Positions 10,697-46,672 of a DNA stretch of 64,000 nucleotides are shown piece after piece. Made by a program: the position numbers and the translations under genes. How positions within the stretch are numbered: the stretch's first letter is position 1; each line of letters begins with the position of its first letter. A model generated the notes under the pieces. It did no database searches. It saw nothing but the letters and a program-made list of their open reading frames with translations, and had not been told where the DNA came from. Source of the DNA: an uncultured Dokdonella sp. (GTDB lineage Bacteria > Pseudomonadota > Gammaproteobacteria > Xanthomonadales > Rhodanobacteraceae); the NCBI GenBank assembly GCA_934526015.1, contig CAKSZY010000005.1:1-64000 (forward strand), in the 5' to 3' direction.

Positions 10697-11368
10697 ATGA
10701 CCTTGCCCTGTGTCGAAATCGAAACCGGCGCGAACCCGCGCCATGTCGTCCTCTGGCTGCACGGCCTCGGTGCCGATGGCCACGACTTCGAGCCGATCGT
10801 GCCGGAACTGGTCGCGCCCGGCATGCCGCCGATCCGCTTCGTGTTCCCGCATGCGCCGGTGCGCCCGATCACCGTCAACGGCGGCATGCCGATGCGGGCC
10901 TGGTACGACATTGCCGGTTTCGAGATCGCCCAGCGCCAGGACGAACCCGGCATGCGCGCCTCGCTGCGCGAACTCGAGGCGCTGATCGCGCGCGAGGTCG
11001 CGCGCGGCATCGATCCGGCGCGCATCGTGCTGGCCGGGTTCTCGCAGGGCGCGGCGATGGTCCTCGCCGGCGGCCTGCGCCACGCCGCACGCCTCGCCGG
11101 CATCGTCGCCCTGTCGGGTTATCTGCCGCTGCACGAGCAACTCGCCGCCGAGCGCGCCGCGGCCAATGCCGACGTGCCGATCTTCATGGCCCACGGCAGC
11201 GCCGACCCGGTGGTGCCGCAACCGCTCGGCCTGCTCGCCCGCGATTTCCTGCGCAGCCTCGGTTACGCGATCGAGTGGAAGAGCTACCCGATGGCCCACC
11301 AGGTCTGCGCCGCGGAGATCGCCGATTTGCGCGCGTGGCTGGTGGCCAGGTTGGGGGCTGGGGGCTAG
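10697..11368 (+). CDS. Carboxylesterase/phospholipase (alpha/beta hydrolase)
   Basis: A 223-residue cytoplasmic alpha/beta hydrolase of the carboxylesterase II / acyl-protein thioesterase group. It has L-H-G-L-G-A-D-G-H-D-F near the N-terminus (oxyanion region), the nucleophile in G-F-S-Q-G-A-A-M (Ser about 115), the acid in H-G-S-A-D-P-V-V (about 166) and the His in P-M-A-H-Q (about 198). These enzymes hydrolyse short-chain esters or lysophospholipids. The last residues, L-G-A-G-G, and the TAG stop (11366-11368) are encoded by the G-rich heptamer array of element A, so the natural C-terminus has been replaced or extended by the repeat. The start at 10697 gives the standard family length; a longer frame upstream carries no homologous sequence. 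Confidence 0.9.
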   Translation: MTLPCVEIETGANPRHVVLWLHGLGADGHDFEPIVPELVAPGMPPIRFVFPHAPVRPITVNGGMPMRAWYDIAGFEIAQRQDEPGMRASLRELEALIAREVARGIDPARIVLAGFSQGAAMVLAGGLRHAARLAGIVALSGYLPLHEQLAAERAAANADVPIFMAHGSADPVVPQPLGLLARDFLRSLGYAIEWKSYPMAHQVCAAEIADLRAWLVARLGAGG

Positions 11369-11575
11369 GGGCTAGGGGCTAGGGAGGCGAGGGCGAGGGG
11401 CGGGGGCGAGGGCGCGACAATCGGGCGTCATCGCACCCGGCTGCGTGGCAAAGCCAACGCATCTTGCACCATCGCATGCTTGAGCCGGTATTCGCGCGTC
11501 GAGCCCTCGCCCCTCGCCCTCGCCCCTCGCCCTCGCCCCTAGCCCCTAGCCCCTAGCCCCTAGCCCTCGCCCCGT
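11352..11575. repeat. Heptamer-array palindromic element A
   Basis: The left arm (about 11352-11415) is G-rich, with tandem GGGGCTA units grading into GGGGCGA and GGGCGA variants. The right arm (about 11503-11575) is the complementary C-rich array with four TAGCCCC units. The spacer, read on the minus strand, opens AGGGCTCGA and contains TGCGATGGTGC, shared with elements B, C and E. It covers the stop of the esterase gene and ends about 38 bp before the algZ start. The G4-N3 spacing matches a G-quadruplex motif, and the two arms could pair as one long hairpin. Confidence 0.9.
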
Positions 11576-11612
11576 GCCTTACCATGGCCCGGGGCATGGC
11601 ACGGGGAACACG

Positions 11613-12680
11613 GTGACGACACAGGCGGGCAATGAAGCCGGGCATCGCTGGCTGCCGCAGTTCTGCAGCCTGCCGACGCTGTTCGCGGTCATGGTCGTGG
11701 CCGAACTCGTCGTCATCGTGCTGGCGCTGGCGCCGGCGCGTCCGCTGCGCGAGGCGATCGCCGGACTCGGCCTCGCCACCGTTTTCGTGCAATGGCTGGC
11801 CCTGCTCAACGTCGTCGTGCTGTGCTCGATGCGCGACACCTTCGCGCGCTGGCCGGCGCGCACCGGTTTCGTCGTCGCCTGGCTGCTCGCGGTCGTCACC
11901 ACCGGACTCGGCAGCGCCGTCGTGCATGCGATGGACGCCGCGCTTGGCCTGCGTCTCCTCGACGACCGCGGCGGCGCCTGGCGCTTCGCCATCGGCAATG
12001 CCGCGATCTGCGCCCTGATCGCGGCGGCCCTGCTGCGCTACCTGTACGTGCGCGAGCTGTGGCAGGAGCGCGTGCGCGCGGCGGCCAAGGCCCAGGTCGA
12101 TGCCTTGCAGGCGCGCATCCGCCCGCATTTCCTCTTCAACAGCATGAACACGATCGCCAGCCTCATCCGCACGCGACCGGCCGAGGCCGAGCGCACCGTG
12201 GAGGACCTGTCCGACCTGTTCCGCGCGGCGCTCGGCGCACGCGAAGGCAGCTCGACGCTCGGCGAGGAGCTCGACCTGGTCGGCCATTACCTGCGCATCG
12301 AGGGACTGCGGCTCGGCCAACGGCTCAAGGTCGACAGCCGCATCGAGGCCCTGCCGCGTGCGCTCGTGTTGCCGCCGCTGCTGCTGCAGCCGCTGGTCGA
12401 GAACGCGGTGTACCACGGCGTCCAGCGCCTGCCGGACGGCGGCACGGTCGTCATCGAGGGCATCCATCACGGCGACGCGGTCGAGATCATCGTGCGCAAT
12501 CCCTGTCCGGTCGACGACGCGAAGCCCGGCAACACCCATGCCCTCGCCAACGTGCGTGCGCGCATCGGCTACCATTTCGGCACGCGCGGCGCGCTGCATG
12601 TGGAGCCGGCGCGCGGCGAGTTCGTGGTGCGCGTGCGCCTGCCTGTGGAAGGAAACGATGAAAGTCCTCCTCGTCGATGA
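11613..12680 (+). CDS. algZ: LytS/AlgZ-type sensor histidine kinase
   Basis: This 355-residue inner-membrane kinase has four hydrophobic segments (about residues 15-165), then the His_kinase motif R-P-H-F-L-F-N-S-M-N with the phospho-His near residue 171, and an ATPase domain with L-L-L-Q-P-L-V-E-N-A-V-Y-H-G and a C-terminal G-N-T-H-A-L-A-N-V-R-x-R. This is the LytS/AlgZ (FimS) architecture that pairs with LytTR regulators. Its stop overlaps the algR start by 23 bp. The order algZ-algR-hemC is the arrangement known from Pseudomonas and Xanthomonas, where the pair controls alginate, type IV pili and motility. I chose GTG 11613 because GGGGAA precedes it; a GTG at 11574 abuts the repeat element and has no ribosome site. 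Confidence 0.88.
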   Translation: MTTQAGNEAGHRWLPQFCSLPTLFAVMVVAELVVIVLALAPARPLREAIAGLGLATVFVQWLALLNVVVLCSMRDTFARWPARTGFVVAWLLAVVTTGLGSAVVHAMDAALGLRLLDDRGGAWRFAIGNAAICALIAAALLRYLYVRELWQERVRAAAKAQVDALQARIRPHFLFNSMNTIASLIRTRPAEAERTVEDLSDLFRAALGAREGSSTLGEELDLVGHYLRIEGLRLGQRLKVDSRIEALPRALVLPPLLLQPLVENAVYHGVQRLPDGGTVVIEGIHHGDAVEIIVRNPCPVDDAKPGNTHALANVRARIGYHFGTRGALHVEPARGEFVVRVRLPVEGNDESPPRR

Positions 12681-13392
12681 CGAACCGCTGGCGCGCGAGC
12701 GCCTCGCCGCCCTGCTCGCCGACGCCGGCGGCATCGAGGTGGTCGGCGAAGCCGGCGACGGTTTCGAGGCGGTGGCCGCCGTGGAGCGACTGAAGCCCGA
12801 CGTGGTCCTGCTCGACATCCGCATGCCGCGCATGGACGGACTCGAGGCCGCGCGCCACCTCGCCACCCTCGATCCTGCACCGGCGGTGGTGTTCTGCACC
12901 GCCTACGACGATCACGCCCTGGCCGCGTTCGAGGCCAACGCGGTCGACTACCTGCTGAAGCCGATCCGCAGCGAACGTCTCAACGCCGCGCTCGAACGCG
13001 CGCGCCGCTTCAGCGCCGCCACCCTGGACTCGGTGAGCCGGGCCGAGCCGGGCCGGCGCGCGCGCACGCATCTCTGCGCGCGCGTGCGCGGCAGCCTCGT
13101 GCTGGTGCCGGTCGCCGACATCGATTACCTGCTCGCCGAAGACAAGTACGTGGTGGTCCACCATGGCGGCGGCGAGGTGTTGATCGAGGAGCCGCTGAAG
13201 GCGCTGGAAAGCGAGTTCGCCGACCGTTTCGTGCGCATCCACCGCAACTGCCTGGTCGCCCTCGACAAGCTCGGCGGCCTCGTCCGCCAGGCCGATGGCC
13301 GCGTGTTCGCCAGGCTCGATCGCGTCGACACGCCGCTCGAGGTGAGCCGGCGCAACCTGCCGGCGCTGCGCAAGACGGTGCGTTCGCTGTGA
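12658..13392 (+). CDS. algR: LytTR-family response regulator AlgR
   Basis: A 244-residue regulator. The receiver domain (1-115) has the acidic pair in L-V-D-D-E-P, the phospho-acceptor Asp in [13 protein letters not shown] (about residue 52) and the Lys in Y-L-L-K-P-I. A LytTR DNA-binding domain (about 140-240) follows, with [12 protein letters not shown] and [10 protein letters not shown]. It is the cognate regulator of the kinase gene that it overlaps. The start has GGAAGGAAAC directly upstream, inside the end of algZ. hemC follows with a GTGA overlap, so the three genes look co-transcribed and translationally coupled. Confidence 0.92.
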
Positions 13393-14312
13393 ACCTGCTG
13401 CGCATTGCCACCCGCGAGAGTGCACTGGCCCTGTGGCAGGCCGAACACGTTGCCGCGCGCCTGCGTGCCGCCCATCCCGGTCTCGCCGTGGAACTGGTGC
13501 CGATGACCACGCGCGGCGACCAGGTGCTCGACCGTCCGCTCGCCGCGATCGGCGGCAAGGGCCTGTTCCTCAAGGAACTCGAGGTGGCCATGCTCGAGGG
13601 CCGCGCCGACATCGCCGTGCATTCGCTGAAGGACGTGCCGATGGACCTCGAACCGGGGTTCGCGATCGCCGCGATCCTCGAGCGCGCCGACGCCGCCGAT
13701 GCCTTCGTCAGCAACGACTTCCCGCGTCTCGACGCATTGCCGCCCGGGGCGCGCGTCGGCACCTCGTCGCTGCGCCGCCAGGCCCTGCTGCGCGCGCTGC
13801 GGCCCGACCTCGAGATCGGCGACCTGCGCGGCAACGTCAACACGCGTCTGGCCAAACTCGACGCCGGTCATTACGCGGCGATCATCCTTGCCTGCGCCGG
13901 CCTCGAACGGCTCGGCCTCGGTGCGCGCGTGCGCGCACGCCTGCAGGCCCCGGCGTGGGTTCCGGCCGTCGCCCAGGGAGCGATCGCCATCGAGCAGCGC
14001 CAGGGCGATGCCCGCGTCGCCGCCCTGACCGGCGTGCTCGACGACGCCGACACCCGCCGCTGCGTGGAAGCCGAGCGCGCGATGAACCTCGCCCTGCACG
14101 GCAGCTGCCATGTGCCGGTGGCGGGCTACTGCACGGAAACCGAGCAGGGCCTCGAACTGCTCGGTCTGGTCGGCGATCCGCAGACGGGACGGCTGGTGCG
14201 TGCCGAGGCAGTGTCGATGGCGGACGAGACTTCGGCCGAGCTGGGCCGGCGCGTGGCGGCGATGTTGTTCGAGCGCGGGGCGGGGGAGTTGCTGGCGGCG
14301 CATGGGGGGTAG
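13389..14312 (+). CDS. hemC: Hydroxymethylbilane synthase (porphobilinogen deaminase)
   Basis: A 307-residue enzyme that polymerises four porphobilinogen molecules into hydroxymethylbilane in tetrapyrrole synthesis. Diagnostic features are [13 protein letters not shown] at the N-terminus, F-L-K-E-L-E and [20 protein letters not shown], and L-H-G-S-C-H-V-P-V, whose Cys (about residue 239) carries the dipyrromethane cofactor. The start is GTG at 13389 overlapping the algR stop (GTGA). The length is standard. In this arrangement haem synthesis is coupled to the algZ-algR transcript. Confidence 0.95.
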
Positions 14313-14507
14313 GTCGCGCGCGCGGCTTTGATCCTTTGCTCTCTCTGGGTGACGTTGCCCCCAGGTTCCACTTGCCTCGGCGCCGCTGCAGGAGAGGGAA
14401 GATCCGGAGCCTGCGTTTTGATTGTGCGTGCGGAGCCTGCCGGACTCGATCCGGTGAACGCGTTCGAGCGCCTCGGCAAACGCATTGCCCTGCACCCGCA
14501 AACGAAA

Positions 14508-14528
14508 ACGGGCCCTCGAGAGGCCCGT
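14508..14528 (-). terminator. Rho-independent terminator for the DUF481 gene
   Basis: ACGGGCC (14508-14514) pairs perfectly with GGCCCGT (14522-14528) across a 7-base loop. Read on the minus strand, the stem is followed by TTTTCG, giving a canonical intrinsic terminator about 27 bp past the stop at 14555. Confidence 0.7.
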
Positions 14529-14554
14529 CGTCGTGACGCCGTGGAGCGGTTCGA

Positions 14555-15343
14555 TCAGAAGTTGTAGACGAGGTTCGTGGTGATCAGCTGGTCGGTCTTG
14601 TCGGTGCCGGGGCTGACGTCGCTGTTGTGGCGCACCTGGTAGCCGAGCTTGAGGGCGAGCTTGCTGTTCATGCTGACGGCGAGGCCGGCATCGTTCTGGA
14701 GGAAGGTGTTGTCCGAGCCGGCTTCCACCAGCAGGGCGTTCTCGAACGCGGTGTTGTCGGTGATCTTGTGCTTGAAGGAGACCAGTCCGCGGCCGACCAC
14801 CTGGCCCTCGGCCGAGGGATCGATGATCGTGGCCACCGGCGGCTCGCCGGCCAGGGTGGTGAACGGGCGCTTGTCGAGGCGGCGGTAGCCGGGGCCGACT
14901 TCGAAGGCGAGTTCGGTGCGCTCGTTCTTGATCGCGGTGTAGCCGTAGCCGAGCGAGAAGATGCCCTGGTACTCGTACGGCGAGAAGTCGTCGTTCTCGT
15001 AGCGGATCGCGCCGACGACGTAGCTGCGCTCGTCGAGCTTGTAGCCCGAGGAGGCGCCGAACTCGTAGCGGTTGGCGGTCAGCTGGTAGCTGTCGACGGT
15101 GGCGCCGGCGGCATCGGTCACCTTCACCTCACCCTTGTTGCGCAGGGCGTTGAGGAAGATGTTGTGCTTCCACACCTCGTCTTCCTTCTTGAACGCGAGC
15201 TTGGCGTTGAGGTTCTCGGATTTCGCGTTGCCGCGGCTCATGGCGAAGCCGAGCTCGCCGCTGCCGGACCAGGTGCCGTCTTCGGCCTGCACGACCAGCG
15301 GGAGGGAAAGCAGCAGCGCGCTCGCGATCAGCGTCTTCTTCAT
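14555..15343 (-). CDS. DUF481 (YdiY-like) outer-membrane protein
   Basis: A 262-residue protein with a signal peptide (M-K-K-T-L-I-A-S-A-L-L-L-S-L-P, cleavage after V-Q-A about residue 20). It is a predicted beta-barrel of the DUF481 family: W-S-G-S-G-E-L-G-F near the mature N-terminus, then alternating strands such as Y-E-F-G-A-S-S-G-Y and T-E-L-A-F-E-V-G-P-G-Y-R, ending T-N-L-V-Y-N-F with the terminal Phe. E. coli YdiY belongs to this family; the function is unknown, but the expected site is the outer membrane. The start at 15343 has AAGGAACC upstream. It is a single-gene unit with a strong terminator. Confidence 0.88.
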   Translation of the reverse strand: MKKTLIASALLLSLPLVVQAEDGTWSGSGELGFAMSRGNAKSENLNAKLAFKKEDEVWKHNIFLNALRNKGEVKVTDAAGATVDSYQLTANRYEFGASSGYKLDERSYVVGAIRYENDDFSPYEYQGIFSLGYGYTAIKNERTELAFEVGPGYRRLDKRPFTTLAGEPPVATIIDPSAEGQVVGRGLVSFKHKITDNTAFENALLVEAGSDNTFLQNDAGLAVSMNSKLALKLGYQVRHNSDVSPGTDKTDQLITTNLVYNF

Positions 15344-15453
15344 GGCAAGGTTCCTTGTGGGGCGCCCGCGGCGGATGCGCGCGGGAAAACGAGGGGATGT
15401 TGCAGCGCCGCAGGATGCTAGCCGGGCGGATTGAACGCCGGGTGAATGCGATG

Positions 15454-16398
15454 TCAACCAATTTGCCGCGTGCCGTAGTAACGCATCACCACATGACGCG
15501 CCTCGGCGAAGAACAGCCAGCGTTCGACGAACACGGCGACGGCGGCGGCGATGGTGGCGATGGCGGCGAAGGCGACTCCGGCCGCCGGCAGGACGAGGGC
15601 GGCCAGCGCCGCCAGCGGCACGACGGCGCCGAGCAGCACGAGGGCGATGCGGCGCAGTCGCGCGGCATGCCGCCGGGCCAGCACGAAACCCATCTCGTGG
15701 GTGAGGTAGTTCGCTTCGCTGTGCGGCGCCTCGACGCTGCGCACGTGGCCGTAGCGGTCGAGGCCGGTGGCGGCGCCGGTCCCTGCGGCCGCGCCGGCAT
15801 CGGCCGGGCGACGCCAGTAGGCGAGCTTGCAGGCTGCGGCGACGACTGCGCCGGCGGCGGCGATCAGTGGCCAGGCCGCCAGGGCCAGTCCGCTGGCGGC
15901 CGCCAGCAGCCACCACCAGGTCGCGCCGGTGGCGAAGGCGAGGGCGAGGAAGGCCGGCAGCACGCGCGCATTGCACCAGGCGGCAATGGTCGGCAGCGAG
16001 GTGTAGATGCGCGCCGTGCAGAACACGACGACGACGGCGTTCGCGACGAGCACGATGCCGGCAAGGCGTTGGCTTGCCGCGCTGCCGTCGAACACGAGCA
16101 CGGCGGTGACGATGGCGACGAGCGCGCAGACGATCGCCGCAATGCCTTCACGCGACAGCCAGGAACTGCGCCACTGGCTCAGCGCGCGCCAGGCGCGCAA
16201 CGGTTTGCCGAGATGGCCGACCGAACACAGCAGGCCGGTCGTGGTCAGCACGAAGCCGGTCGCCAGGGCGACGAACATGGGAGCGCGCACGGCGGGATGG
16301 CCCGCATGCACGGCGAGCACGAGGCCGCACAGGAACCACAGGCCGTAGCCGGCGCCCGACAGGGTGGTGAAGAAGAGGATGGAGAGGGCGGGGCGCAT
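15454..16398 (-). CDS. soeC: DmsC/SoeC-like membrane anchor subunit of a molybdoenzyme
   Basis: A 314-residue polytopic protein with eight or nine hydrophobic helices and the DmsC-family pattern: S-I-L-F-F-T-T-L-S-G-A-G-Y-G near the N-terminus, L-L-C-S-V-G-H-L-G-K-P and R-A-W-R-A-L-S-Q-W-R-S-S-W-L-S-R-E. DmsC-type anchors pass electrons between quinones and the iron-sulfur subunit. The gene starts 8 bp after the iron-sulfur subunit gene and its length is close to SoeC, the anchor of cytoplasm-facing sulfite dehydrogenase. Family membership is clear. The sulfite assignment comes from the whole operon and is inferred. Confidence 0.75.
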   Translation of the reverse strand: MRPALSILFFTTLSGAGYGLWFLCGLVLAVHAGHPAVRAPMFVALATGFVLTTTGLLCSVGHLGKPLRAWRALSQWRSSWLSREGIAAIVCALVAIVTAVLVFDGSAASQRLAGIVLVANAVVVVFCTARIYTSLPTIAAWCNARVLPAFLALAFATGATWWWLLAAASGLALAAWPLIAAAGAVVAAACKLAYWRRPADAGAAAGTGAATGLDRYGHVRSVEAPHSEANYLTHEMGFVLARRHAARLRRIALVLLGAVVPLAALAALVLPAAGVAFAAIATIAAAVAVFVERWLFFAEARHVVMRYYGTRQIG

Positions 16399-16406
16399 CG
16401 GCGAAT

Positions 16407-17186
16407 TCAGCGCGACAGCACGCGGTCGAGCCAGCGCAGCATCGGCGGCAGCTGCTCGCGGTCGAGGGTTTCGGGTGCGGGCGTCGCCGGGCTCGCGCTC
16501 CCGTCGCGGCGCGGGCGCGGCGGCAGGTAGCGGTTGACCGGCCGATAGCCGAGTTCCGGCATCAGCGCGTAGCCGTCGCGCTCGGCGACCAGACGCGACA
16601 CCGCCGAGGTTTCGTCACCGAGGTCGCCGAAGTGTCGCGCATGGGTCGGGCAGGCCAGCACGCAGGCCGGCTGGCGGTCGGCCTCGTCGAGCGTCTTGTT
16701 GTAGATGCGGTCGACGCACAGCGTGCATTTCTGCATGGTGCCGTGGCGTGCGCTGAACTCGCGCGCGCCGTACGGACACGCCCAGGCGCAGAGCTGGCAA
16801 CCGATGCACTTGTCCTCGTCGACGAGGACGATGCCGTCCTCGGCCCGCTTGTAGCTCGCTCCGGTCGGACACACCGTCACGCAGGCCGGGGTCTCGCAGT
16901 GCAGGCACGAGCGCGGGAAGTGCACGCTCATCGTCGTCGCGCCGGCCCTCGCCGGCGCCTCGCCGCCGCACTCCGTTGCCGGGCGCGTGACCTCGTAGCT
17001 GTGCACGCGGTTGAACCAGACGCCGAACGGCTCCGCCCCGCGGGTGTTTTCGTCGACGAGCGGACCGAAGTCGCCGCCATCGTTCCATTCCTTGCACGCC
17101 ACCGCGCAGGCATGGCAACCGACGCAGGTGTCGAGATCGATCACCAGGCCGAGCTTCCTCTTCGCGGGGGCGGGCAGGCAGGTCAT
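16407..17186 (-). CDS. soeB: Four-cluster 4Fe-4S ferredoxin subunit (SoeB/DmsB-like)
   Basis: A 259-residue protein with sixteen cysteines in four 4Fe-4S motifs: C-V-G-C-H-A-C-A-V-A-C-K-E-W-N, C-L-H-C-E-T-P-A-C-V-T-V-C-P, C-I-G-C-Q-L-C-A-W-A-C-P-Y-G and C-T-L-C with C-V-L-A-C-P-T-H-A. This is the DmsB/PsrB/SoeB type that wires the molybdenum subunit to the membrane anchor. No Tat signal is present, so the complex faces the cytoplasm. Its ATG overlaps the stop of the methyltransferase gene (ATGA at 17183-17186), so these two are translationally coupled. Confidence 0.8.
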   Translation of the reverse strand: MTCLPAPAKRKLGLVIDLDTCVGCHACAVACKEWNDGGDFGPLVDENTRGAEPFGVWFNRVHSYEVTRPATECGGEAPARAGATTMSVHFPRSCLHCETPACVTVCPTGASYKRAEDGIVLVDEDKCIGCQLCAWACPYGAREFSARHGTMQKCTLCVDRIYNKTLDEADRQPACVLACPTHARHFGDLGDETSAVSRLVAERDGYALMPELGYRPVNRYLPPRPRRDGSASPATPAPETLDREQLPPMLRWLDRVLSR

Positions 17187-20976: not shown

Positions 20977-21065
20977 GGGCGCGTGCCTGGAGGGCGATGC
21001 TTCCGCCACTGCGAACCGTCCCTGGTGCGTGGCTCCGGCCCGGCCATCCCTGGCCGGTCGCTCGC

Positions 21066-21108: not shown

Positions 21109-21111
21109 CGC

Positions 21112-30637: not shown

Positions 30638-30871
30638 ATGGACATCGGGCGCCTCGTGCAGATGGCCAACGACATCGGCGACTACTTCGCCAGCGAACCC
30701 GATCGCGCCGCCGCCGTGGCCGGCATCGCCAGCCACCTCGAGCGCTTCTGGGAAGCGCGCATGCGCCGGCAGATCCTCGCCCACCTCGCCGCCGGCGGCG
30801 ACGGCCTCGACGACCTGCCGCGCGCGGCGATTGCCGAACTTGCGATGAGGGGGCTAGGGGCTGGGGGCTAG
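30638..30871 (+). CDS. fdsD: Formate dehydrogenase delta subunit
   Basis: A 77-residue FdsD-type small subunit: V-Q-M-A-N-D-I-G-D-Y-F-A-S-E-P followed by A-V-A-G-I-A-S-H-L-E-R-F-W-E-A-R-M-R, which is the family core. FdsD is needed for full activity or assembly of the complex. It is the last gene of the operon. The final residues R-G-L-G-A-G-G and the stop TAG (30869-30871) come from the heptamer array of element B, the same tail as that of the esterase gene ending at 11368, so the C-terminus is repeat-derived. Confidence 0.88.
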   Translation: MDIGRLVQMANDIGDYFASEPDRAAAVAGIASHLERFWEARMRRQILAHLAAGGDGLDDLPRAAIAELAMRGLGAGG

Positions 30872-31097
30872 GGGCGAGGGGCGAGGGGCGAGGGGAGAGG
30901 GCTCGAAACTCGAAGACCGGATCAAGCTTGCGATGGTGCTACAGGGGCTGGCCGTACGAGGGTAACGCGCGTGACGACACCTGGTTGTCGAGCCCTCGCC
31001 CCTCGCCCCTCGCCCTTCCTCTAGCCCCTCGCCCCTCGCCCCTCGCCCTTCCTCTAGCCCCTCGCCCTTCCTCCAGCCCCTAGCCCCTAGCCCCTAG
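30847..31097. repeat. Heptamer-array palindromic element B
   Basis: The G-rich left arm (about 30847-30901) has GGGGCTA followed by GGGGCGA units. The C-rich right arm (about 30992-31097) has TCGCCCC and TAGCCCC units. The spacer opens AGGGCTCGAAACTCGAAGAC, contains CTTGCGATGGTGCTACAG and closes TTGTCGAGCCCT. The element lies between two convergent genes and supplies the TAG stops of both, fdsD on the left and hemJ on the right. Confidence 0.9.
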
Positions 31098-33229: not shown

Positions 33230-33240
33230 TCCGCGCCGGC

Positions 33241-34260: not shown

Positions 34261-35127
34261 ATGGCCAAGACCTTCATCGCGATCCTGCTGGTCATCGCCA
34301 GCGTGCAGGCATTGCCCGATCTCGCCCGCGTGCGCGGTTTCCCGTGGCTGCGCGACCTGCTCGAGGAGGCGCATGCGCGGCGCAGCGGCCTCGCCGGCGT
34401 GTTTGCCGTGCCGGTCCTGCTGGTGGCCCTGACCGCGCTGATCCAGCACCTGCTGCACGGGGTCTGGTTCGGTTTGCCCGAATTCGCCTTCATGGCGCTG
34501 GTCCTGTTCGCCTGCTGGGGCCCGCGCGACCTCGATGCCGACATCGAGAGCGTGCTGAAGGCGCCCGACAGCGAGCGCCGCCGCGTCGCCGCGCAGGCGC
34601 TGAATGCCGACAGCGGCCTCGGCGAACTCGAGTATTCCGCGCCGGCGCTCGTCGAGGCCGGCTTCCGCGCCGCCCTGTCGCGGCACTTCGGCGTGCTGTT
34701 CTGGTTCGTCGTGCTCGGCCCGGTCGGCGCGATCGGTTACCGCCTCGTGCAGTTGCTGGCGCGTTCGCCGGGCTTTCGCGAAACCACCGGCAGCGCCGCC
34801 GAAACCCTCGAGCGCACGGCGCGCGTGCTCGACTGGGCTCCGGCCCACCTGATGGCCTGGTCGGTCGCGGTGGTCTCCGATTTCGACGCCGTCGCGCGCA
34901 GCTGGCGCGACTACCACGCCGCCCACGGCCGCGGCTGGTTCACCCTCGATCTCGGCTTCCTCGCCGTGATCGCCCGCGCCGGCGTCGATGCCGACGTGGT
35001 CGCCGAAGACGGCAGCACCGCCGACGCCACCGTCGAACTCGCCGACGCCCGCGTCATCCTGCGCCGGGTCATGCTCGCCTGGCTCGCGGTGATCGCGATC
35101 GTGGTGATCGGCGGCTGGGCTGGTTGA
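34261..35127 (+). CDS. ampE: AmpE-like membrane protein
   Basis: A 288-residue membrane protein of the AmpE/CobD-like family. Hydrophobic segments fall at the N-terminus (I-A-I-L-L-V-I-A-S), about 45-80 and 155-175, and a C-terminal helix (L-A-W-L-A-V-I-A-I-V-V-I) ends it. Family-like stretches are F-G-V-L-F-W-F-V-V-L-G-P-V-G-A-I-G-Y-R and L-E-Y-S-A-P-A-L-V-E-A-G-F-R. E. coli AmpE is a putative sensor for beta-lactamase induction, but no ampD neighbour is visible. The TGA stop abuts repeat element C. Confidence 0.8.
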   Translation: MAKTFIAILLVIASVQALPDLARVRGFPWLRDLLEEAHARRSGLAGVFAVPVLLVALTALIQHLLHGVWFGLPEFAFMALVLFACWGPRDLDADIESVLKAPDSERRRVAAQALNADSGLGELEYSAPALVEAGFRAALSRHFGVLFWFVVLGPVGAIGYRLVQLLARSPGFRETTGSAAETLERTARVLDWAPAHLMAWSVAVVSDFDAVARSWRDYHAAHGRGWFTLDLGFLAVIARAGVDADVVAEDGSTADATVELADARVILRRVMLAWLAVIAIVVIGGWAG

Positions 35128-35310
35128 GGGCAGGGGCTAGCAGCCAGGGGCTAGGGGCTAGCGGCTAGGGCTCGAAACCCGGGCACTGGGACTAGCTTGC
35201 GATGATGCTGCAGGAGCTGGCTGCACGCCGTTTCCGCATGCGATGAAGCCGGCTGTCGCGCCCTGGCCCCTGGTCCCTGGCCCCTGGTCCCTAGTCCCTA
35301 GCCCCTAGCT
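35126..35310. repeat. Heptamer-array palindromic element C
   Basis: The left arm is imperfect (GGGGCTA with AGCAGCCA and GCGGCTA variants). The spacer begins AGGGCTCGAAACCCGGGCAC and contains CTTGCGATGATGCTGCAG. The right arm has GGCCCCTGGTCCCTAG units ending TAGCCCCTAG. It lies between the convergent genes ampE and lplT-aas, abutting the ampE stop and providing the TAG of the second. It is more degenerate than D and E, so possibly older. Confidence 0.88.
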
Positions 35311-37188: not shown

Positions 37189-37323
37189 CGGTTCCGATCC
37201 GCGGGAGGCGCCTGCAATCTACTCGATTCCGCCGCGGATGCCGCAGGCGAACGCGATCTGAACGCGCCCGCCGTCCCCAGCCGGTACACTGCGCCCCCCG
37301 AACGATCCGCCACGGTATTGCGC

Positions 37324-39048: not shown

Positions 39049-39106
39049 ACCCGCTCGTTGCCTCGACGCCGCGCCTGTTCCACGATGCGCGGGGGGAGGG
39101 CACGAG

Positions 39107-39574
39107 ATGGGGAAGCGCCACGGATCCGGACAAGCGCGCCAGTCGCGGCGGTGGCGCTACCGTGTCGCGCGTTCGCGCGCCGCGGTCGGCCGCTTTGCCG
39201 ACCGCCTCGATGCCGACCTCGCCGCCGCCGGCATCGAGGCTGCCGCGCGCCATGGCCTCGCCACCGTGCTCGACGAGCTGCTGGCCAACGTCATCATGCA
39301 TGCCGAATCGGCACGCGGCTGCGTCCACGTCACCGTGCGTCGCCAGGCCGGCGACCTGGCCGCGCGCCTGCGCTACCGTGCGCGCGCCTTCGATCCCACC
39401 GCGCAGGCCGCGCCGGAACAGCCCGCCTCGCTGGCCGAGGCCACCGTGGGCGGCGTCGGCATCGCCATGGTGCGTGCGCTGACGCGCCGTTTCGAATGGC
39501 GCCATGCGCGCAGCGAGAACCGCGTCTGCGTGAGTCTCCCCCTGCTGCCCGCGGAGGACGCCGCCGCTTCGTGA
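39107..39574 (+). CDS. Anti-sigma-factor-type ATP-binding protein (RsbW/HATPase_c_2)
   Basis: A 155-residue GHKL ATPase domain. The N-box is D-E-L-L-A-N-V-I-M-H-A and the G-box region is G-G-V-G-I-A-M-V-R-A-L, as in the RsbW/SpoIIAB family of serine kinases that sequester sigma factors or phosphorylate anti-sigma antagonists. A basic N-terminal extension (K-R-H-G-S-G-Q-A-R-Q-S-R-R) is unusual. No antagonist or sigma factor gene is adjacent, so the target is unknown. The start has GGGGGGAGGG upstream. Confidence 0.82.
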   Translation: MGKRHGSGQARQSRRWRYRVARSRAAVGRFADRLDADLAAAGIEAAARHGLATVLDELLANVIMHAESARGCVHVTVRRQAGDLAARLRYRARAFDPTAQAAPEQPASLAEATVGGVGIAMVRALTRRFEWRHARSENRVCVSLPLLPAEDAAAS

Positions 39575-39608
39575 GCGGCGTGATGCCCGTGCTGCGCCGG
39601 ACTTCGCT

Positions 39609-40892
39609 TCAGGACTTCCGCGCGAGCGCGCGGTGGCCGATGTCGCGGCGGAAGAAGCAGCCCTCGAAGCGGACGCTGCGGGCGAGCGCATAGGCGCGCT
39701 CGCGCGCCTGGCCGATGTCGTCGCCGAGTGCGCAGGCGGTCAGCACGCGGCCGCCGGCGCTGAGCACGCGGCCGTCGGCGGCGCGCGTGCCGGCATGGAA
39801 CAGGCGGGTGTCGGCGGGTGGTTCCGCCTCGAGGCCGTCGATGGCGTCGCCGCTGCGCACCCGGCCCGGATAGCCTTGGGCGGCGATGACGATGCCGATC
39901 GCCGGACGCGGATCCCAATCGGCGTGGATGCGGTCGAGGCGGCCCTGCAGCGCGGCTTCGACGAGTTCGACGAGATCGGACTTCAGGCGCAGCAGGATCG
40001 GCTGCGTTTCCGGATCGCCGAAGCGCACGTTGAACTCGATCACCTTCGGGGTTCCGTCCGCCGCGATCATCAGCCCGGCATAGAGGAAACCGATGAATGG
40101 CGCGCCCTCGGCGGCCATGCCGGCGAGGGTCGGCCGGATCACCTCCTCGAGGATGCGCCGCTCGACCTCGGGGGTGACCACCGGTGCCGGTGAATAGGCG
40201 CCCATGCCGCCGGTGTTCGGTCCGGTGTCGGCTTCGCCGACGCGCTTGTGGTCCTGGCTGGTCGCCATCGGCAGGGCATTCTTGCCGTCGGCGATGACGA
40301 TGTAGCTCGCTTCCTCGCCCTCGAGGTATTCCTCGATGACCACGCGCGCCGAAGCTTCGCCGAGCGAATGCGCGCCGAGCATGTCGCGCACGGCCTGTTC
40401 GGCATCGCCGAGGGTGAGGGCGACGACCACGCCCTTGCCGGCAGCGAGCCCGTCCGCCTTGATGACGATCGGCGCGCCGTGCCTGCGCACCCAGGCGAGC
40501 GCCGGCTCGACTTCGCTGAACACGGCATGGCGTGCGGTCGGGATGTTGTGGCGGGCGAGGAAGGCCTTGGCGAAGGCCTTCGAGCCTTCCAGCTGGGCGG
40601 CGATGCGGCGCGGGCCGAAGCAGGCCATTCCGGCGCTGCGGAAGCGGTCGACGATGCCGGCCACCAGCGGCCCTTCCGGACCGACCACGGTCAGCGCGAC
40701 ATCCTCTTCCAGCGCCAGCGTCAGCAGGCCTTCGAGATCGGTCACCGCGACCGCGGCATTGCGCACGCGCGGCTCGCGCGCGGTACCCGCATTGCCCGGC
40801 GCGACGATCACCTCGCCGACATGCGGCGACTGCGCGAGCTTCCAGGCCAGGGCGTGTTCACGGCCGCCGGAACCGATGACGAGGAGTTTCAT
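39609..40892 (-). CDS. purD: Phosphoribosylamine-glycine ligase
   Basis: A 427-residue GARS enzyme: N-terminal V-I-G-S-G-G-R-E-H-A-L-A-W, ATP-grasp G-P-N-T-G-G-M-G-A-Y-S-P, F-N-V-R-F-G-D-P-E-T-Q and A-D-G-L-A-A-G-K-G-V-V-V. It makes glycinamide ribonucleotide in purine synthesis. The initiating ATG is certain from homology, yet it is directly abutted by the C-rich heptamer arm of element D, so no Shine-Dalgarno precedes it. It is the downstream partner of purH across the element. Confidence 0.95.
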   Translation of the reverse strand: MKLLVIGSGGREHALAWKLAQSPHVGEVIVAPGNAGTAREPRVRNAAVAVTDLEGLLTLALEEDVALTVVGPEGPLVAGIVDRFRSAGMACFGPRRIAAQLEGSKAFAKAFLARHNIPTARHAVFSEVEPALAWVRRHGAPIVIKADGLAAGKGVVVALTLGDAEQAVRDMLGAHSLGEASARVVIEEYLEGEEASYIVIADGKNALPMATSQDHKRVGEADTGPNTGGMGAYSPAPVVTPEVERRILEEVIRPTLAGMAAEGAPFIGFLYAGLMIAADGTPKVIEFNVRFGDPETQPILLRLKSDLVELVEAALQGRLDRIHADWDPRPAIGIVIAAQGYPGRVRSGDAIDGLEAEPPADTRLFHAGTRAADGRVLSAGGRVLTACALGDDIGQARERAYALARSVRFEGCFFRRDIGHRALARKS

Positions 40893-41077
40893 GGCTAGGG
40901 GCTAGGGATTAGGGGCTAGGGATTAGGGGCTAGGGATTAGGGGCTAGGGATTAGCGGCTAGGGCACGAAAATCGCGGGGTTGGACATACGGGTTGCTCTA
41001 CAACGTTGCTCGGATGGAACCAAGTGCGGTTTTCGCGCCCTGGCCCCTAGTCCCTAGTCCCTAGTCCCTAGCCCCTC
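40893..41077. repeat. Heptamer-array palindromic element D
   Basis: The left arm (40893 to about 40962) alternates GGGGCTA and GGGATTA, giving a 14-bp period repeated about four times. The right arm (about 41041-41077) has three or more TAGTCCC units and ends TAGCCCC. The spacer differs from A, B, C and E; on the minus strand it begins AGGGCGCGAAAACCGC, like F. It lies between purH and purD, both minus strand, touches the purD start codon and ends about 9 bp from the purH stop. Confidence 0.92.
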
Positions 41078-41085
41078 AATGCCAC

Positions 41086-42663
41086 TCAATGGCGGAAATG
41101 CCGCACGCCGGTGAACACCATGGCGATATCGTGTTCGTCGGCGGCGGCGATGACTTCGCTGTCGCGCATCGAGCCGCCGGGCTGGATCACCGCGCGGATG
41201 CCGGCGGCGGCGGCGGTGTCGATGCCGTCGCGGAACGGGAAGAAGGCATCCGAGGCCATCACGCTGCCGGCCACGTCGAGGTCGGCTTCGGCGGCTTTCA
41301 GCGCGGCGATCCGCGCGCTGATGACGCGGCTCATCTGGCCGGCGCCGACGCCGATCGTGCGACCGCCGCGGGCATAGACGATGGCATTCGACTTGACGAA
41401 CATCGCCACGTGCCAGGCGAACAGCAGGTCGCGCAATTCGCCGGCTTCGGGCACGCGGCGGGTGACCACCTTGAGGTCGCCGAGCAGCAGGGTGTCGCGG
41501 TCGGTGTCCTGCACGAGCAGGCCGCCGGCGATGCGCTTGAAATCGGCATAGGCCGGCATGTGCTCGGGCCAGGCGCCGGCGGCCAGCAGGCGCACGTTCG
41601 GTTTGCGCGCGAACACCTCGACCGCGTCGGCATCGACTTCCGGCGCGATCACCACCTCGACGAACTGGCGGTCGAGGATGCGTGCCGCGGTGGCCGCATC
41701 GAGGCGGTGGTTGAAGGCGATGATGCCGCCGAACGCCGACACCGGGTCGCAGGCGTAGGCGAGGTCGTAGGCGTCGCCGATGCTTTCGCCGAGGGCGACG
41801 CCGCAGGGATTGGCGTGCTTGACGATGACGCAGGCCGGCGTGCGCTGGAACGCCTTGACGCATTCGAGCGCGGCATCGGCATCGGCGAGGTTGTTGAACG
41901 AGAGTTCCTTGCCGGCGAGCACCTGCGCGCCGGCGACGGTGCCGGGCGGCAGTTCGCGCTGCACGTACAAGGCGGCACCCTGGTGCGGGTTCTCGCCGTA
42001 GCGCAACACCTGCTTGCGCTCGAAGCTGAGGTGCAGGGTCGGTGCGAAGGCCTCGCTGGTGTCGCCGCCGATGCGGGCGCCGAGCCAGTTGGCGATGCGG
42101 CCGTCGTAGGCGGCGGTGTGCGCGAAGGCCTTGGCGGCGAGGCGCCGGCGCAGTTCGATCGAGGTGCCGCCGTGGGCCAGCGACTCGAGCACTTCGGCGT
42201 AGTCGGCCGGATCGACGATGACGACGACGTGCTCGTGGTTCTTCGCCGCCGCACGCAGCATCGCCGGGCCGCCGACGTCGATGTTCTCGATCGCCTCGGC
42301 CAGTCCGCAGTCGGGCTGCGCGGTGACCTGCTCGAACGGATAGAGGTTGACCACCAGCAGGTCGATCGGGCGGATGCCGTGTTCGGCCATCACCGCTTCG
42401 TCGATGCCGCGCCGGCCGAGCAGGCCGCCGTGGACGAGCGGATGCAGGGTCTTGACGCGGCCGTCCATGATTTCCGGGAAACCGGTCAGCGCGCTGACCT
42501 CGGTGATCTGCAGGCGCGCGTCGCGCAACACGCCGGCGGTGCCGCCGGTGGAAACGAGGCGGATGCCGAGCGCGTCGAGGCCACGGGCGAAATCGGCCAG
42601 GCCGGTCTTGTCGGAGACGCTCAGCAGGGCACGGCGCGGGTGGACGAGCGAGGCGTCGAACAT
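41086..42663 (-). CDS. purH: Bifunctional AICAR transformylase/IMP cyclohydrolase
   Basis: A 525-residue enzyme for the last two steps of IMP synthesis. The N-terminal cyclohydrolase domain (about 1-200) has [17 protein letters not shown] and [10 protein letters not shown]. The transformylase domain has [19 protein letters not shown] and S-D-A-F-F-P-F-R-D, including the catalytic K-H pair. It lies downstream of fis, as in other gammaproteobacteria. Confidence 0.96.
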
Positions 42664-42712
42664 CGAGCACTCCGGAATCGCAGGCGGGCAGTGGGCACGG
42701 GTTGCCGGACAC

Positions 42713-42747
42713 GATCCGCCGCATGCCGCCGGCCGTGTCGGCGGATC
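42713..42747 (-). terminator. Hairpin after fis
   Basis: GATCCGCCG (42713-42721) and CGGCGGATC (42739-42747) form a 9-bp stem immediately after the fis stop on the minus strand. No T run follows, so it may pause or protect the transcript rather than end it; purH follows in the same direction. Confidence 0.35.
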
Positions 42748-42748
42748 T

Positions 42749-43036
42749 TCAGTTCAGGCCGTAATGCTGCAGCTTCTTGCGCAGGGTCGCGCGATTGATG
42801 CCGAGCGCGGCCGCCGCCTTGCTCTGGTTGCCGCCGTACCAGGCCATCACCTCGCGCAGCAGCGGCTGCTCCACTTCGGCGATCACCAGTGCATGCAGGC
42901 CTTCGCCGGGCTGCGAGTCGACATCGGCGAGATAGCGCCGGACCGCGCGCGCGACGCATTCGCGCAGCGCCGGTTGCAGCGACGGATCCTGCGCGGCATC
43001 GGCACGCAGATGGGCAACGGCATTCACGGCGGACAC
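42749..43036 (-). CDS. fis: DNA-binding protein Fis
   Basis: A 95-residue nucleoid protein: C-terminal helix-turn-helix [20 protein letters not shown] and the Y-G-L-N terminus. The N-terminal part ([13 protein letters not shown]) is the family dimer helix. Fis controls rRNA and growth-phase genes. The start is GTG at 43036 with GGGGAT upstream; a GTG at 43027 is an alternative. Confidence 0.93.
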
Positions 43037-43166
43037 GATCCCCGATGGCTGATGGCGGATGGCTTGGAACAGGACCGTGGCGCAGGCTGGGGTCGCGCAC
43101 GGGGGGGAACGAGTCTACTCCGCACGGGCCGGCGAGTTAAGTGCCGTGCCGGGTGGGTGGACCGTG

Positions 43167-43961
43167 TCAGTCGAAGCTGAACTCGAAAGCCACCGCATTG
43201 CGGCCGGGGTCGACCACCTCGAACACGATCGCCGCATTGGCGCCGGGCGCCAGGCCCTTGCGCAGGCCGGCCTCGTCGGCCACGTATTCCTGCGGCAGGA
43301 AGCGGCGCATGGCGATGCGCTGCTCGTCGAAATCCGACAGCGTCACCTGCACGGCCGGAAACGGCTGGGCGAAGTCGGCGGCGTTGTGCAGGGTGGCCGA
43401 AACGATCAGTGCGCCGGCCACCGACGGATGCGGGCGGATGTCGCGCGAGGCCAGTTCGAGCAGGCCGTCGTCGCGGCGCAGCGGCAGCGCGCAACCGAGC
43501 CGGTCGCAGGCGGCATCGAGCCACGGCCGGATGCGCGCATCATCGATCCAGTGCGCGCGTTCGGCCCAGGCGACCTGTCCGCCGAGGACCAGGGCGAGCA
43601 GCAGGCTGCCGGCGATCCAGCGACCGTTGCGGCGCGCCGCACGCGGGCGTGACGCACGCCGGGCGAACGCCGGCGCACTGCTGCCGTGGCCGCGGCGCGG
43701 GCGGTCCGCGGCGTCGACGAACAGCGAGCCCTGTCCGGGCGGCGTCGGCCGGAACACCGAATGGGTCAACTGCGGCGGCGCTTCCTGCTCGCTGTTGCGC
43801 TCGAGCGTGCCGATCGGCTCCGGCGGCAACTGCTCGCAGAGCGTGGTGAGCGCATCGAACAGCGCGCTGCAATGCCCGCACCGCATCCCGCCGCGCGCCG
43901 CGGCGAGGTCGCTGGCGCCGACCCGGTAGATGGTCAGGCATTCGGGGCATTGCGTGTACAT
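43167..43961 (-). CDS. Zinc-ribbon DUF3426 membrane protein
   Basis: A 264-residue protein. The N-terminal MJ0042-type zinc ribbon is C-P-E-C (residues 5-8) with C-G-H-C about 20 residues later. An Arg/Pro-rich linker, one transmembrane helix (about 118-137, I-A-G-S-L-L-L-A-L-V-L-G-G) and a DUF3426 domain (about 150-264: L-I-V-S-A-T-L-H-N, P-F-P-A-V-Q-V-T-L-S-D, F-L-P-Q-E-Y) follow. This architecture regularly sits between prmA and fis in these genomes; the function is unknown. The start lies about 20 bp from repeat element E. Confidence 0.88.
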   Translation of the reverse strand: MYTQCPECLTIYRVGASDLAAARGGMRCGHCSALFDALTTLCEQLPPEPIGTLERNSEQEAPPQLTHSVFRPTPPGQGSLFVDAADRPRRGHGSSAPAFARRASRPRAARRNGRWIAGSLLLALVLGGQVAWAERAHWIDDARIRPWLDAACDRLGCALPLRRDDGLLELASRDIRPHPSVAGALIVSATLHNAADFAQPFPAVQVTLSDFDEQRIAMRRFLPQEYVADEAGLRKGLAPGANAAIVFEVVDPGRNAVAFEFSFD

Positions 43962-43980
43962 GCGCGCATTGTAGCGAGGA

Positions 43981-44236
43981 GCTGGGGACCAGGGGCTAGG
44001 GACTAGGGGCTAGGGGCTAGGGAGGGATTAGGGGCTAGGGACTAGGGATTAGGGGCTAGGGGCTAGGGGCTAGGGTTCGACAACCGGGTGCCATCGCGCT
44101 CGACAACGTGGTACAGCCTGCCTCTGTAGCACCATCGCAAACTTGTTCCGGTTCTCGAGTTTCGAGCCCTAGCCTCTAGTCCCTAGTCCCTAGTCCCTAG
44201 TCCCTAGTCCCTAGTCCCTAGCCCCTGATCCCTGCG
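43981..44236. repeat. Heptamer-array palindromic element E
   Basis: The left arm (43981 to about 44074) mixes GGGGCTA, GGGACTA and GGGATTA. The right arm (about 44166-44236) is a regular run of about six TAGTCCC units ending TAGCCCC-TGATCCC. The spacer, read on the minus strand, is AGGGCTCGAAACTCGAGAAC, then TTTGCGATGGTGCTACAG, and close to B. It is the longest copy. Its right arm codes for the last residues and the TAG stop of prmA. Confidence 0.92.
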
Positions 44237-45108
44237 ATACGCACCCAATCCTCGCGCTGCACGACCACGAGGTCGTCGAACCATTCCGCGTAGCGCGCGC
44301 ACAGTTCCGCGGCCTGGCCGGCGAGGATGCCGGACAGCACCAGCGCGCCGCCGGGTTTGACGCGGGTGGCGAACAGCGGTGCGAGTTCGTGCAGCGGTCC
44401 GGCGAGGATGTTGGCGAGCAGCACGTCGACCGGCGCGCCGTCGCCGTTGCCGGGTGCAGCCACGGTGATTTCCGCAGCGACGCCGTTGCGTGCGGCATTG
44501 TCGAGCGTGGCGAGCAGGGCCTGCGGATCGTTGTCGATGGCGAGCACGTGGCGCGCGCCGAGGCGCGCGGCGGCGATCGCCAGCACGCCGGAACCGCAGC
44601 CGTAGTCGATCACTTCGCGGTCTTCGAGCACGGCGCCGTCGAGCCATTCCAGGCACAGCGCCGTGGTCGGGTGGGTGCCGGTGCCGAAGGCGAGGCCGGG
44701 ATCGAGGCGCACGACCACGCGGCTGTCGTCGTCGGGCGGCTCGATGTTCCACGGATGGATCCACAGGCGCTCGCCGAAACGCATCGGCTGGAAGCGGTCC
44801 ATCCACACGCGCGTCCAGTCCTGTTCCTCGACCTCGCGGAAGCCGATCTGTTCCGGGGCGAGCTCGGGCAGGAACTCGCCGAGCACATGCACGAGTCCGT
44901 TGCGGTCGACGCCGTCCTCGAACAGCGCAGCCAGGGCGATGGTCGGCCACAACGGCGTCTCGCCGACCGCGGGTTCGAGGATCGCCTGTTCGTTGCCGGT
45001 GTCGGCATCGGCGTCGAGCAGGGTGATCGAGAGCGCGCCGACGTCCTCGAGCGCGGCCTCGACGGCGGCCTGCTGGTCGGGACGCAGGGTCAGCGTGAGT
45101 TCGAACAT
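44218..45108 (-). CDS. prmA: Ribosomal protein L11 methyltransferase
   Basis: A 296-residue SAM methyltransferase that trimethylates L11. It has Q-D-W-T-R-V-W-M-D-R-F-Q-P-M-R-F-G, L-D-P-G-L-A-F-G-T-G-T-H-P-T-T and the SAM motif V-I-D-Y-G-C-G-S-G-V-L-A-I-A, then D-V-L-L-A-N-I-L-A-G-P-L. The end departs from the family: G-I-R-G and the TAG stop (44218-44220) are encoded by the heptamer array of element E. It follows accC by 14 bp. Confidence 0.95.
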   Translation of the reverse strand: MFELTLTLRPDQQAAVEAALEDVGALSITLLDADADTGNEQAILEPAVGETPLWPTIALAALFEDGVDRNGLVHVLGEFLPELAPEQIGFREVEEQDWTRVWMDRFQPMRFGERLWIHPWNIEPPDDDSRVVVRLDPGLAFGTGTHPTTALCLEWLDGAVLEDREVIDYGCGSGVLAIAAARLGARHVLAIDNDPQALLATLDNAARNGVAAEITVAAPGNGDGAPVDVLLANILAGPLHELAPLFATRVKPGGALVLSGILAGQAAELCARYAEWFDDLVVVQREDWVRIAGIRG

Positions 45109-45122
45109 GGAATCGGGCCGGA

Positions 45123-46490
45123 TCAGCCGAGGCCGATGGCCTTCTCGCGCGCCTCGGCCATGCGCTTCTCGAGATAGTGGATGTTCATGCCGCCGGTCTG
45201 GAAGCCGGCGTCGGCCATGATGCGCTGCTGCAGCGACAGGTTGGTCTTCACTCCCTCGATGACGACCTCGGCGAGCGCATTGCGCATGCGCGCAACCGCG
45301 GTCGCGCGGTCGCGGCCGTGCACGATCAGCTTGCCGATCATCGAATCGTAGTTCGGCGGAATGCGGTAGCCGTCGTAGATGTGCGTGTCCATGCGCACGC
45401 CGGGACCGCCGGCGGCGAGGAAGCGCTTCACCGTGCCGGGGCTCGGCATGAAGCTGTCCGGGTCCTCGGCATTGATGCGGCATTCGATCGCGTGCCCGGT
45501 CAGGCGCACGTCCTGCTGGCGGATCGACAGCTTTTCGCCGGCGGCGATCAGCAACTGTTCGCGCACGAGGTCGATGCCGGTGATCATCTCGGTGACCGGA
45601 TGCTCGACCTGGATGCGCGTGTTCATCTCGATGAAGTAGAAGCGGCCGTCCTCGAACAGGAACTCGAAGGTGCCGGCGCCGCGATAGCCGATGCGCAGGC
45701 AGGCATCGACGCAGACGCGGCCGATCTCGGCGCGCAGTTCCTCGGTGATGCCGGGTGCGGGCGCTTCCTCGACGACCTTCTGGTGGCGCCGCTGCATCGA
45801 ACAGTCGCGCTCGCCGAGGTGGACGGCATTGCCCTGGCCGTCGGCGAGCACCTGGATCTCGACGTGGCGCGGATTCTCGAGGAATTTCTCCATGTAGACC
45901 TGGTCGTTGCCGAACGCGGCCTTGGCCTCGCTCTTGGTCATCGCCACCGCATTGGCCAGGTGCGCCTCGGTGTGCACGACGCGCATGCCGCGGCCACCGC
46001 CGCCGCCGGCCGCCTTGACGATGACCGGGTAACCGATGTCGCGGGCGATGCGCGTGTTCTCGGCGACGTCGTCGCCGAGCGGTCCGCCCGAGCCCGGCAC
46101 GCACGGCACGCCGGCCGCCTTCATCGCGCGGATCGCCTCGACCTTGTCGCCCATCATGCGGATCGTGTCCGCGCGCGGGCCGATGAAGATGAAGCCCGAC
46201 TGCTCGACGCGCTCGGCGAAATCGGCGTTTTCGGCGAGGAAGCCGTAGCCCGGATGGATGGCCTGCGCGTCGGTCACCTCGGCGGCGGCGATGATCGCCG
46301 GCACGTTGAGGTAGCTCTCGGCGGCCGGCCCCGGGCCGATGCACACCGACTCGTCGGCCATGCCGACGTGCTTGAGGTTGCGATCGACCGTCGAGTGCAC
46401 GGCCACCGTCTTGATGCCGAGCACATGGCAGGCGCGCAGGATGCGCAGCGCAATCTCGCCGCGGTTGGCGATGACGACTTTATCGAGCAT
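45123..46490 (-). CDS. accC: Acetyl-CoA carboxylase biotin carboxylase subunit
   Basis: A 455-residue ATP-grasp enzyme: [21 protein letters not shown] and [13 protein letters not shown], with standard length. It carboxylates biotin on AccB in fatty acid synthesis. accB lies upstream, separated by element F instead of the usual short gap. Confidence 0.97.
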
Positions 46491-46508
46491 GGGAAGGCGC
46501 CTGGTGCA

Positions 46509-46672
46509 TGGGGGCTGGGGATCAGGGGCTAGGGGCTAGGGACTAGGGGCTAGTGGCCAGGGCACATGGATGGAGGCTTTCGCCAGACTCGGAACTTCTT
46601 TGTGAACCAACGTCGCGATTTTCGCGCCCTGACCACTAGTCCCTGGCCCCTATCCCCCAGCCCCTCGCTCTC
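46509..46672. repeat. Heptamer-array palindromic element F
   Basis: The left arm (46509-46562) has GGGGCTA, GGGACTA and degenerate units. The right arm (about 46627-46672) has ACTAGTCCCTGGCCCCTATC. The spacer on the minus strand starts AGGGCGCGAAAATCGCG and contains TTGGTTC, placing it with D. It separates accB from accC, lying 6 bp past the accB stop and about 19 bp before the accC start. Confidence 0.88.

Follow-up and report, generated by a model that had tools for sequence, protein, structure and literature searches.

We analyzed a 64,000-nucleotide stretch of DNA from an uncultured Dokdonella sp. (assembly GCA_934526015.1, contig CAKSZY010000005.1, positions 1 to 64,000; hereafter the window). 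It carries six intergenic elements, A to F, all built as a G-rich array of 7-bp units, a spacer and the complementary array. We consider that these are probably gene-less members of an S23-element family, similar to the intervening sequences (IVSs) of 23S rRNA but located outside rRNA, and that a cognate S23/Avd-like protein spreads or maintains them. In its full form, an element of this family would comprise a 7-bp-unit array, an S23 gene (PF05635, the 23S-rRNA intervening-sequence protein, a four-helix-bundle protein related to Avd) and the complementary array. Consistent with this, inverted arms flank 72 of 100 S23 loci from Pseudomonadota, Cyanobacteriota and Gemmatimonadota, and none of 136 displaced control intervals. 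The unit sequence of the arms, their dialect, follows the type of S23 protein, and gene-less copies tend to share the dialect of the S23 gene in their genome. The six elements are listed below; no strand is assigned to an element as a whole, array limits are approximate, and class 1 denotes the spacer core found in four of them.

Element A, 11352..11575: G-rich array ~11352-11415, C-rich array ~11503-11575; class-1 spacer core at 11404-11514, - strand; a TAG at 11366-11368 terminates the upstream carboxylesterase-like gene.
Element B, 30847..31097: G-rich array ~30847-30905, C-rich array ~30992-31097; class-1 spacer core at 30891-31001, + strand; supplies TAG stops for both convergent neighbours (an FdsD-domain gene and a UPF0093 gene).
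Element C, 35126..35310: G-rich array ~35126-35170, C-rich array ~35260-35310; class-1 spacer core at 35160-35269, + strand; supplies the TAG stop of its right neighbour, a - strand major facilitator superfamily (MFS)/acyltransferase gene.
Element D, 40893..41077, in the purH|purD gap: G-rich array ~40893-40963, C-rich array ~41038-41077; spacer of another class than class 1.
Element E, 43981..44236, in the gap between prmA and a DUF3426 gene: G-rich array ~43981-44077, C-rich array ~44167-44236; class-1 spacer core at 44067-44177, - strand; contains the prmA stop codon (44218-44220).
Element F, 46509..46672, in the accB|accC gap: G-rich array ~46509-46562, C-rich array ~46629-46672; spacer of another class than class 1; the same gap holds an S23-bearing element in several relatives.

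With a strict pair rule (at least 3 GGG and at least 3 CCC tracts at period 7), the window contains 7 pairs of arrays in convergent order, which include every element but C, and none in the opposite, C-then-G order. Element C, whose left arm has just two regular tracts, is missed by this rule; a looser one gives 9 convergent pairs covering all six elements, again with none in the opposite order. Other periods yielded two pairs at period 6 and none at 5, 8, 9 or 10 with the strict rule, and one at period 6 and none at 5, 8 or 9 with the looser rule. The main units are GGGGCTA (27), GGGGCGA (12), GGGACTA (12) and GGGATTA (5). In all six elements the terminal inverted repeats can pair into a stem, and RNA folding places each of them, on either strand, under the average of 30 dinucleotide shuffles (z -2.8 to -19.6). 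An earlier note, made from the letters of the window, had described six elements of this plan at these positions, with the G-rich arm met first from either side and arms able to pair as a hairpin, and the analysis bears it out in all three respects. The conserved spacer core that it described is shared by A, B, C and E, which score 81-91 bits with a sequence model partly built from them (it was made from their spacers and three G097 spacers), and does not extend to D (19 bits) or F (no match); D, F and other elements have only the inner ends in common. Assembly error, which the note had named as something that would refute it, is unlikely: relatives sequenced independently show this plan at corresponding operon gaps. 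An Rfam scan of the window gave no match at the gathering score; with a lax threshold, low-scoring microRNA-type hairpins and one internal ribosome entry site model appeared, all below that score. The empty purH|purD gap of locus L001 contains an apparent ribosome-binding site; in the window, element D abuts the purD start codon and no ribosome-binding site is evident before purD, so that the choice of purD start or its initiation may differ.

The association of S23 genes with inverted arms was observed directly, in all three phyla, by an inverted-repeat score of at least 16 with displaced intervals as controls. Across 147 genomes of the bacterial family, S23 was found in 53, with one or two matches each (65 in total) and internal stops in none. 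Arms were present at 46 of the 62 matches read (26 of the first 30; two G007 fragments and one weak G085 match were omitted) and at 0 of 60 displaced intervals; among small open reading frames (ORFs) taken as a further control, 6 of 600 had inverted arms. A phylum-wide draw found S23 in 62 of 398 genomes; 29 loci were fetched, and arms flanked 17 of the 25 that were long enough (controls 0/50). Plasmid records with S23 numbered 35, 12 of them from Nostoc. Nine of the 13 that were read had arms, compared with none of 26 controls (maximum score 15), and examples include GGGAGTA in Nostoc edaphicum, AGGGTGT in Calothrix brevissima and AGGTGAC in Anabaena sp. 90. Phage records gave no S23 match at E 1e-5, and an Rfam scan of 19 S23 loci returned one signal recognition particle RNA and nothing else. 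A related solved structure is 2gsc, XCC0516 of X. campestris (E 1e-40).

The arms of S23 loci keep a 7-bp period: their self-similarity at lag 7 is 0.70 in the family set and 0.73 in the phylum-wide set, and at most 0.38 at other lags except 14. The arms of the Gemmatirosa S23 have period 8, and some others (L353, L364, L393) appear nearer to an 8-bp or mixed period. These features bear on the idea that slippage, together with selection for G-quadruplexes at the ends of genes, maintains the arrays as simple sequence repeats, their pairing and S23 being incidental. The arms in the window do fit a G-quadruplex motif, as the earlier note had proposed, and G-quadruplex formation in vitro with a preference for four units has been published for Xanthomonas repeats (PMC4692102). 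However, conserved runs of four or more GGG tracts are not a feature of S23 arms: of 63 such arms, 46 have fewer than four GGG tracts and 18 contain no GGG, while the 7-bp period persists. The G-quadruplex is therefore not the common denominator of the family, and the proposal stands for the window's own arms only. Since, in addition, pairs in the window occur in convergent order only and arms surround S23 genes, we regard slippage with G-quadruplex selection as an improbable explanation.

Dialects of the arms cluster by S23 protein phylogeny. In a tree built from 60 S23 stretches (two short ones were dropped and 7 rows left unlabelled), with dialects labelled by eye and a few of them on weak arms, we observed 12 dialect changes, where the minimum is 9 and the mean of shuffled labels 35.5; none of 200 shuffles was as low. 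Where a genome has two S23 genes, these often differ in dialect (G143, G145, G005, G097, G013, G024 and G123). Because these arms are linked to the S23 gene, gene-less copies are the stronger test, and the tendency was directly observed in them too. A 19-base pattern was taken from five S23 arms of GAGTGAG type; it had at least 10 sites in 6 of 6 searched genomes with that S23 type, of which G094 alone had not contributed to the pattern, compared with 4 of 29 others (p=1.3e-4). The four others comprise two with other S23s (G135, G056) and two without S23 (G046, G136). Many of the sites form close convergent pairs, and in one short element of G143 the arm is identical to the S23 arm over 36 of 36 bases, and a short loop stands where the gene would be. 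Similarly, at least 20 GGGAAT/GGGATT arrays were found in 18 of 24 genomes with the S23 clade of that dialect, compared with 3 of 23 that carry other S23s; the AAT:ATT ratio of the arrays follows the S23 dialect (p=4e-4). This test covered 47 of the 53 S23 genomes; of 7 further genomes searched outside it, G041 and G043 are array-rich without a detected S23. For the window itself, the S23 arms of G130, whose AccC is 94% identical, rank 1 of 50 against its inner arms, and the next three ranks are the rest of that dialect.

Across the 147 genomes, arrays and S23 co-occur: 34 genomes have both, 19 arrays only, 19 S23 only and 75 neither (p=1.5e-7, phylogeny ignored), and some of the S23-only genomes are explained by dialects that lack GGG. 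A lax array pattern matches 104 of the 147 genomes; its counts range from 0 to >1000, and for some genomes the backward-read controls are sizeable. The window's TAGGGRY dialect, in its exact three-unit form, was found in 4 of 233 genomes. By a PrmA scan, the window belongs near Dokdonella within the Lysobacterales. Two genomes labelled Dokdonella fugitiva differ, with 97 GGGAAT-array matches and an S23 gene in A3 (G004) and neither matches nor S23 in RH2WT43 (G003). The survey stretches of G005 and G041 contained few strict pairs. One-sided match counts of >1000 in G005 and >3000 in G015 suggest very large tandem arrays.

The accB|accC gap, where element F lies, shows both occupied and empty sites. 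An insertion of 422-462 bp with heptamer arms occupies it in 9 of the 17 relatives where it is readable; in 3 the insertion is short (91-93 bp), and in 5 the gap is empty (7-15 bp). A PF05635 match lies at this position in the insertion-bearing G001, G004, G005, G047, G073, G097, G139 and G149, with further matches in G129 and G148; the 422-bp insertion of G119 has no such match and is presumably a decayed copy. In the named loci, tblastn placed S23 in the gap in L002, L005, L006, L014 and L023, and in two pieces in L008. The 33 named loci with a readable gap comprise the six S23 loci (441-462 bp), 21 gaps of 10-25 bp and 6 of 66-148 bp. Two of the intermediate gaps (L003, L025) contain clear gene-less inverted elements. 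In L003 the dialect of the short element, GGTGAGC, is that of an S23 located elsewhere in its genome, G002, and the intermediate gap of L019 has an end in the S23 dialect of its genome, though with an arm score of just 11.5. More generally, orthologous operon gaps in relatives contain elements of other dialects or are empty.

These gaps are also among the grounds for a rival explanation, that the elements are domesticated RNA hairpins serving the host at gene ends, as RNase III sites, in protection of 3' ends or in attenuation, with the sequence turning over while the position is kept and S23 maybe a passenger. The occupation of the same operon gaps across genera and the strong folding agree with such a role, as does placement at stop codons: in the window, arms supply a neighbour's TAG stop at five places (before A, on both sides of B, to the right of C and for prmA at E). 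Moreover, 83% of the repeats of X. campestris pv. campestris (Xcc) share their context in X. axonopodis pv. citri (Xac) (PMC4692102). Against this, empty gaps are common (the 21 of 33 gaps mentioned above), several genomes have no arrays, and the dialect at one gap varies between genomes and tracks S23. We therefore consider host service a less likely origin, with perhaps a minor chance of being correct, although present use of the hairpins as host RNA-processing sites is compatible with part of the mechanism proposed below for S23 elements.

The two-tier plan of one gene and many short palindromes recalls REPIN-RAYT systems, in which one trans-acting gene accompanies many short palindromes of cognate sequence. 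By analogy, a Y1 (TnpA-REP) transposase could mobilize the arms, and Y1_Tnp was indeed found in 98 of the 147 genomes. It is, however, not associated with the arrays (38 of 53 array genomes vs 60 of 94 others, p=0.37), and G011, G013 and G017 are array-rich with no Y1_Tnp match. This explanation is disfavoured and appears very improbable; the gene that goes with the palindromes here is S23 and not a Y1 transposase. Genome G034 has many near-identical Y1_Tnp genes (18 matches), an unrelated burst of an IS200-like element. Miniature inverted-repeat transposable elements (MITEs) are also short and devoid of genes, have inverted repeats at their ends and possess gene-bearing counterparts. Elements A to F share the gene-less plan of MITEs and differ in that their arms are tandem heptamer arrays and that no target duplication was established; we know of no transposase for heptamer-array elements.

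The closest described repeats are those of Rehm et al. 2015 (PMC4692102), who reported GGGAATC arrays in Xanthomonas with 70 convergent inverted pairs in Xcc and 75 in Xac, and left their function open. The paired plan, which the earlier note took to be undescribed, was thus already known. Like A to F, these GGGNATC and GGGGA(C/T)T heptamer repeats of Xanthomonas and Nostoc are G-rich 7-bp arrays, mostly intergenic, near stops, with many convergent inverted pairs and a position largely common to two species (PMC4692102). Elements A to F are likewise tandem GGGN3-4 heptamers, intergenic and paired, and differ from GGGNATC in their unit. The S23 link, the GGG-less dialects and the class-1 core are added here, and the excerpted text of that report names neither a partner gene nor a gene-bearing form (PMC4692102). 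A search of the open-licence PubMed Central literature found no link between S23 and dispersed heptamer arrays, which is no proof of absence. What is new here appears to be the S23 partner gene of the relatives, which could not be seen from the window alone.

The gene-bearing elements resemble the 23S rRNA IVS of Coxiella, which has an S23 ORF between terminal inverted repeats that form a 28-bp stem, variable-number tandem heptamers before the ORF, and excision by RNase III; a mobile origin of IVSs was proposed earlier (PMC4990558). In contrast to that IVS (PMC4990558), the elements described here are located between protein genes and most copies are gene-less. PF05635 also resembles Avd of diversity-generating retroelements, a protein essential to retrohoming (PMC10053308). 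We infer that a cognate S23 protein may recognize the hairpin of its own arms, as DNA or RNA, and could spread or maintain gene-bearing and gene-less copies in trans. At the ends of genes, where copies would survive, RNase III could cleave the hairpin once transcribed, much as it does in the classical IVS of 23S rRNA, and the messages on either side would be little harmed; in the dialect of the window, the TAG within the arms also gives flanking genes their stop codons.

Several observations weigh against S23-driven spread of A to F. The window has no S23 match; the S23 ORF of the S23/IVS-like family is carried by the counterparts at the accB|accC gap of relatives and by none of the six elements; nor are these located in 23S rRNA, as they lie between protein genes in a window without Rfam match. 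Clear arms are missing at 28 of the 100 S23 loci, and 38 of the 147 genomes are discordant (19 array-only and 19 with S23 but without GGG arrays), in statistics that ignore phylogeny. Linkage alone would place arms with their gene on the S23 tree. The closest relative, G047 (AccC 96% identical), and G097 have class-1 cores but only S23s of other dialects, G130 alone having one that fits, and the class-1 core is unlike S23 genes: as a candidate relic of one, it gave no alignment clearly beyond shuffles. No movement of an element was observed; the non-autonomous mobile unit suggested by the earlier note is our leading reading, with its mobility deduced. The alignment of occupied and empty sites that the note called for did reveal both states at accB|accC, and established no target duplication at orthologous gaps, as the empty-gap relatives are too diverged. 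The search of relatives with spacer and array patterns, also proposed there, matched arrays in many family genomes and the core strongly in few. Among the candidates scored in 233 family genomes (at most 16 per genome), strong core matches outside the window occurred only in G097 (at least 16), G130 (15) and G047 (5), and 13 further genomes had one weak match each (E 7e-5 to 1e-3).

Heptanucleotide repeats of Xanthomonas and Nostoc, rRNA IVSs and stand-alone S23 genes have each been without an accepted explanation so far. The family proposed here would supply a partner gene for bacterial repeats of a kind that has long lacked an explanation, and the shared architecture would unite the three, making testable both the recognition of arms by the protein and the spread of an element with no known transposase. 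More tentatively, heptamer palindromes, stand-alone S23 genes and rRNA IVSs might form one superfamily of minimal mobile elements, an extension to which we give rather less credence than to the S23-element reading itself. In such a superfamily, one Avd-like four-helix protein would propagate the elements by recognizing hairpins of its own 7-bp dialect and borrowing host enzymes (possibly RNase III and a reverse transcriptase in trans), with no transposase or nuclease of its own, and gene-less copies would be non-autonomous dependants.

Three further lines of analysis were set aside. A conserved RNA fold of the class-1 core was not convincing (five single folds, z 0.2 to -3.6). Correction of the arms of a locus by one another was not supported in G097 and G130, where within-locus scores were not above between-locus scores; in the window they were slightly above. 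When plasmids were searched for distant DNA matches to the window operon, the matches listed were mainly to housekeeping genes.

Finally, the surroundings of some elements were noted. In a plasmid of Anabaena sp. 90 (L382) and one of Pseudanabaena galeata (L390), an S23 gene with heptamer arms is found between cas6 and cas4, as if an element had landed in a CRISPR-Cas operon, and in the Nostoc edaphicum plasmid pNe_5 (L384) a GGGAGTA-armed S23 separates annotated genes for ribonucleotide reductase beta and alpha-type subunits. In L346 and in the gaps of L006 corresponding to D and E, the arms seem to be doubled or nested, as would result from an element inserting into a second one or next to it.

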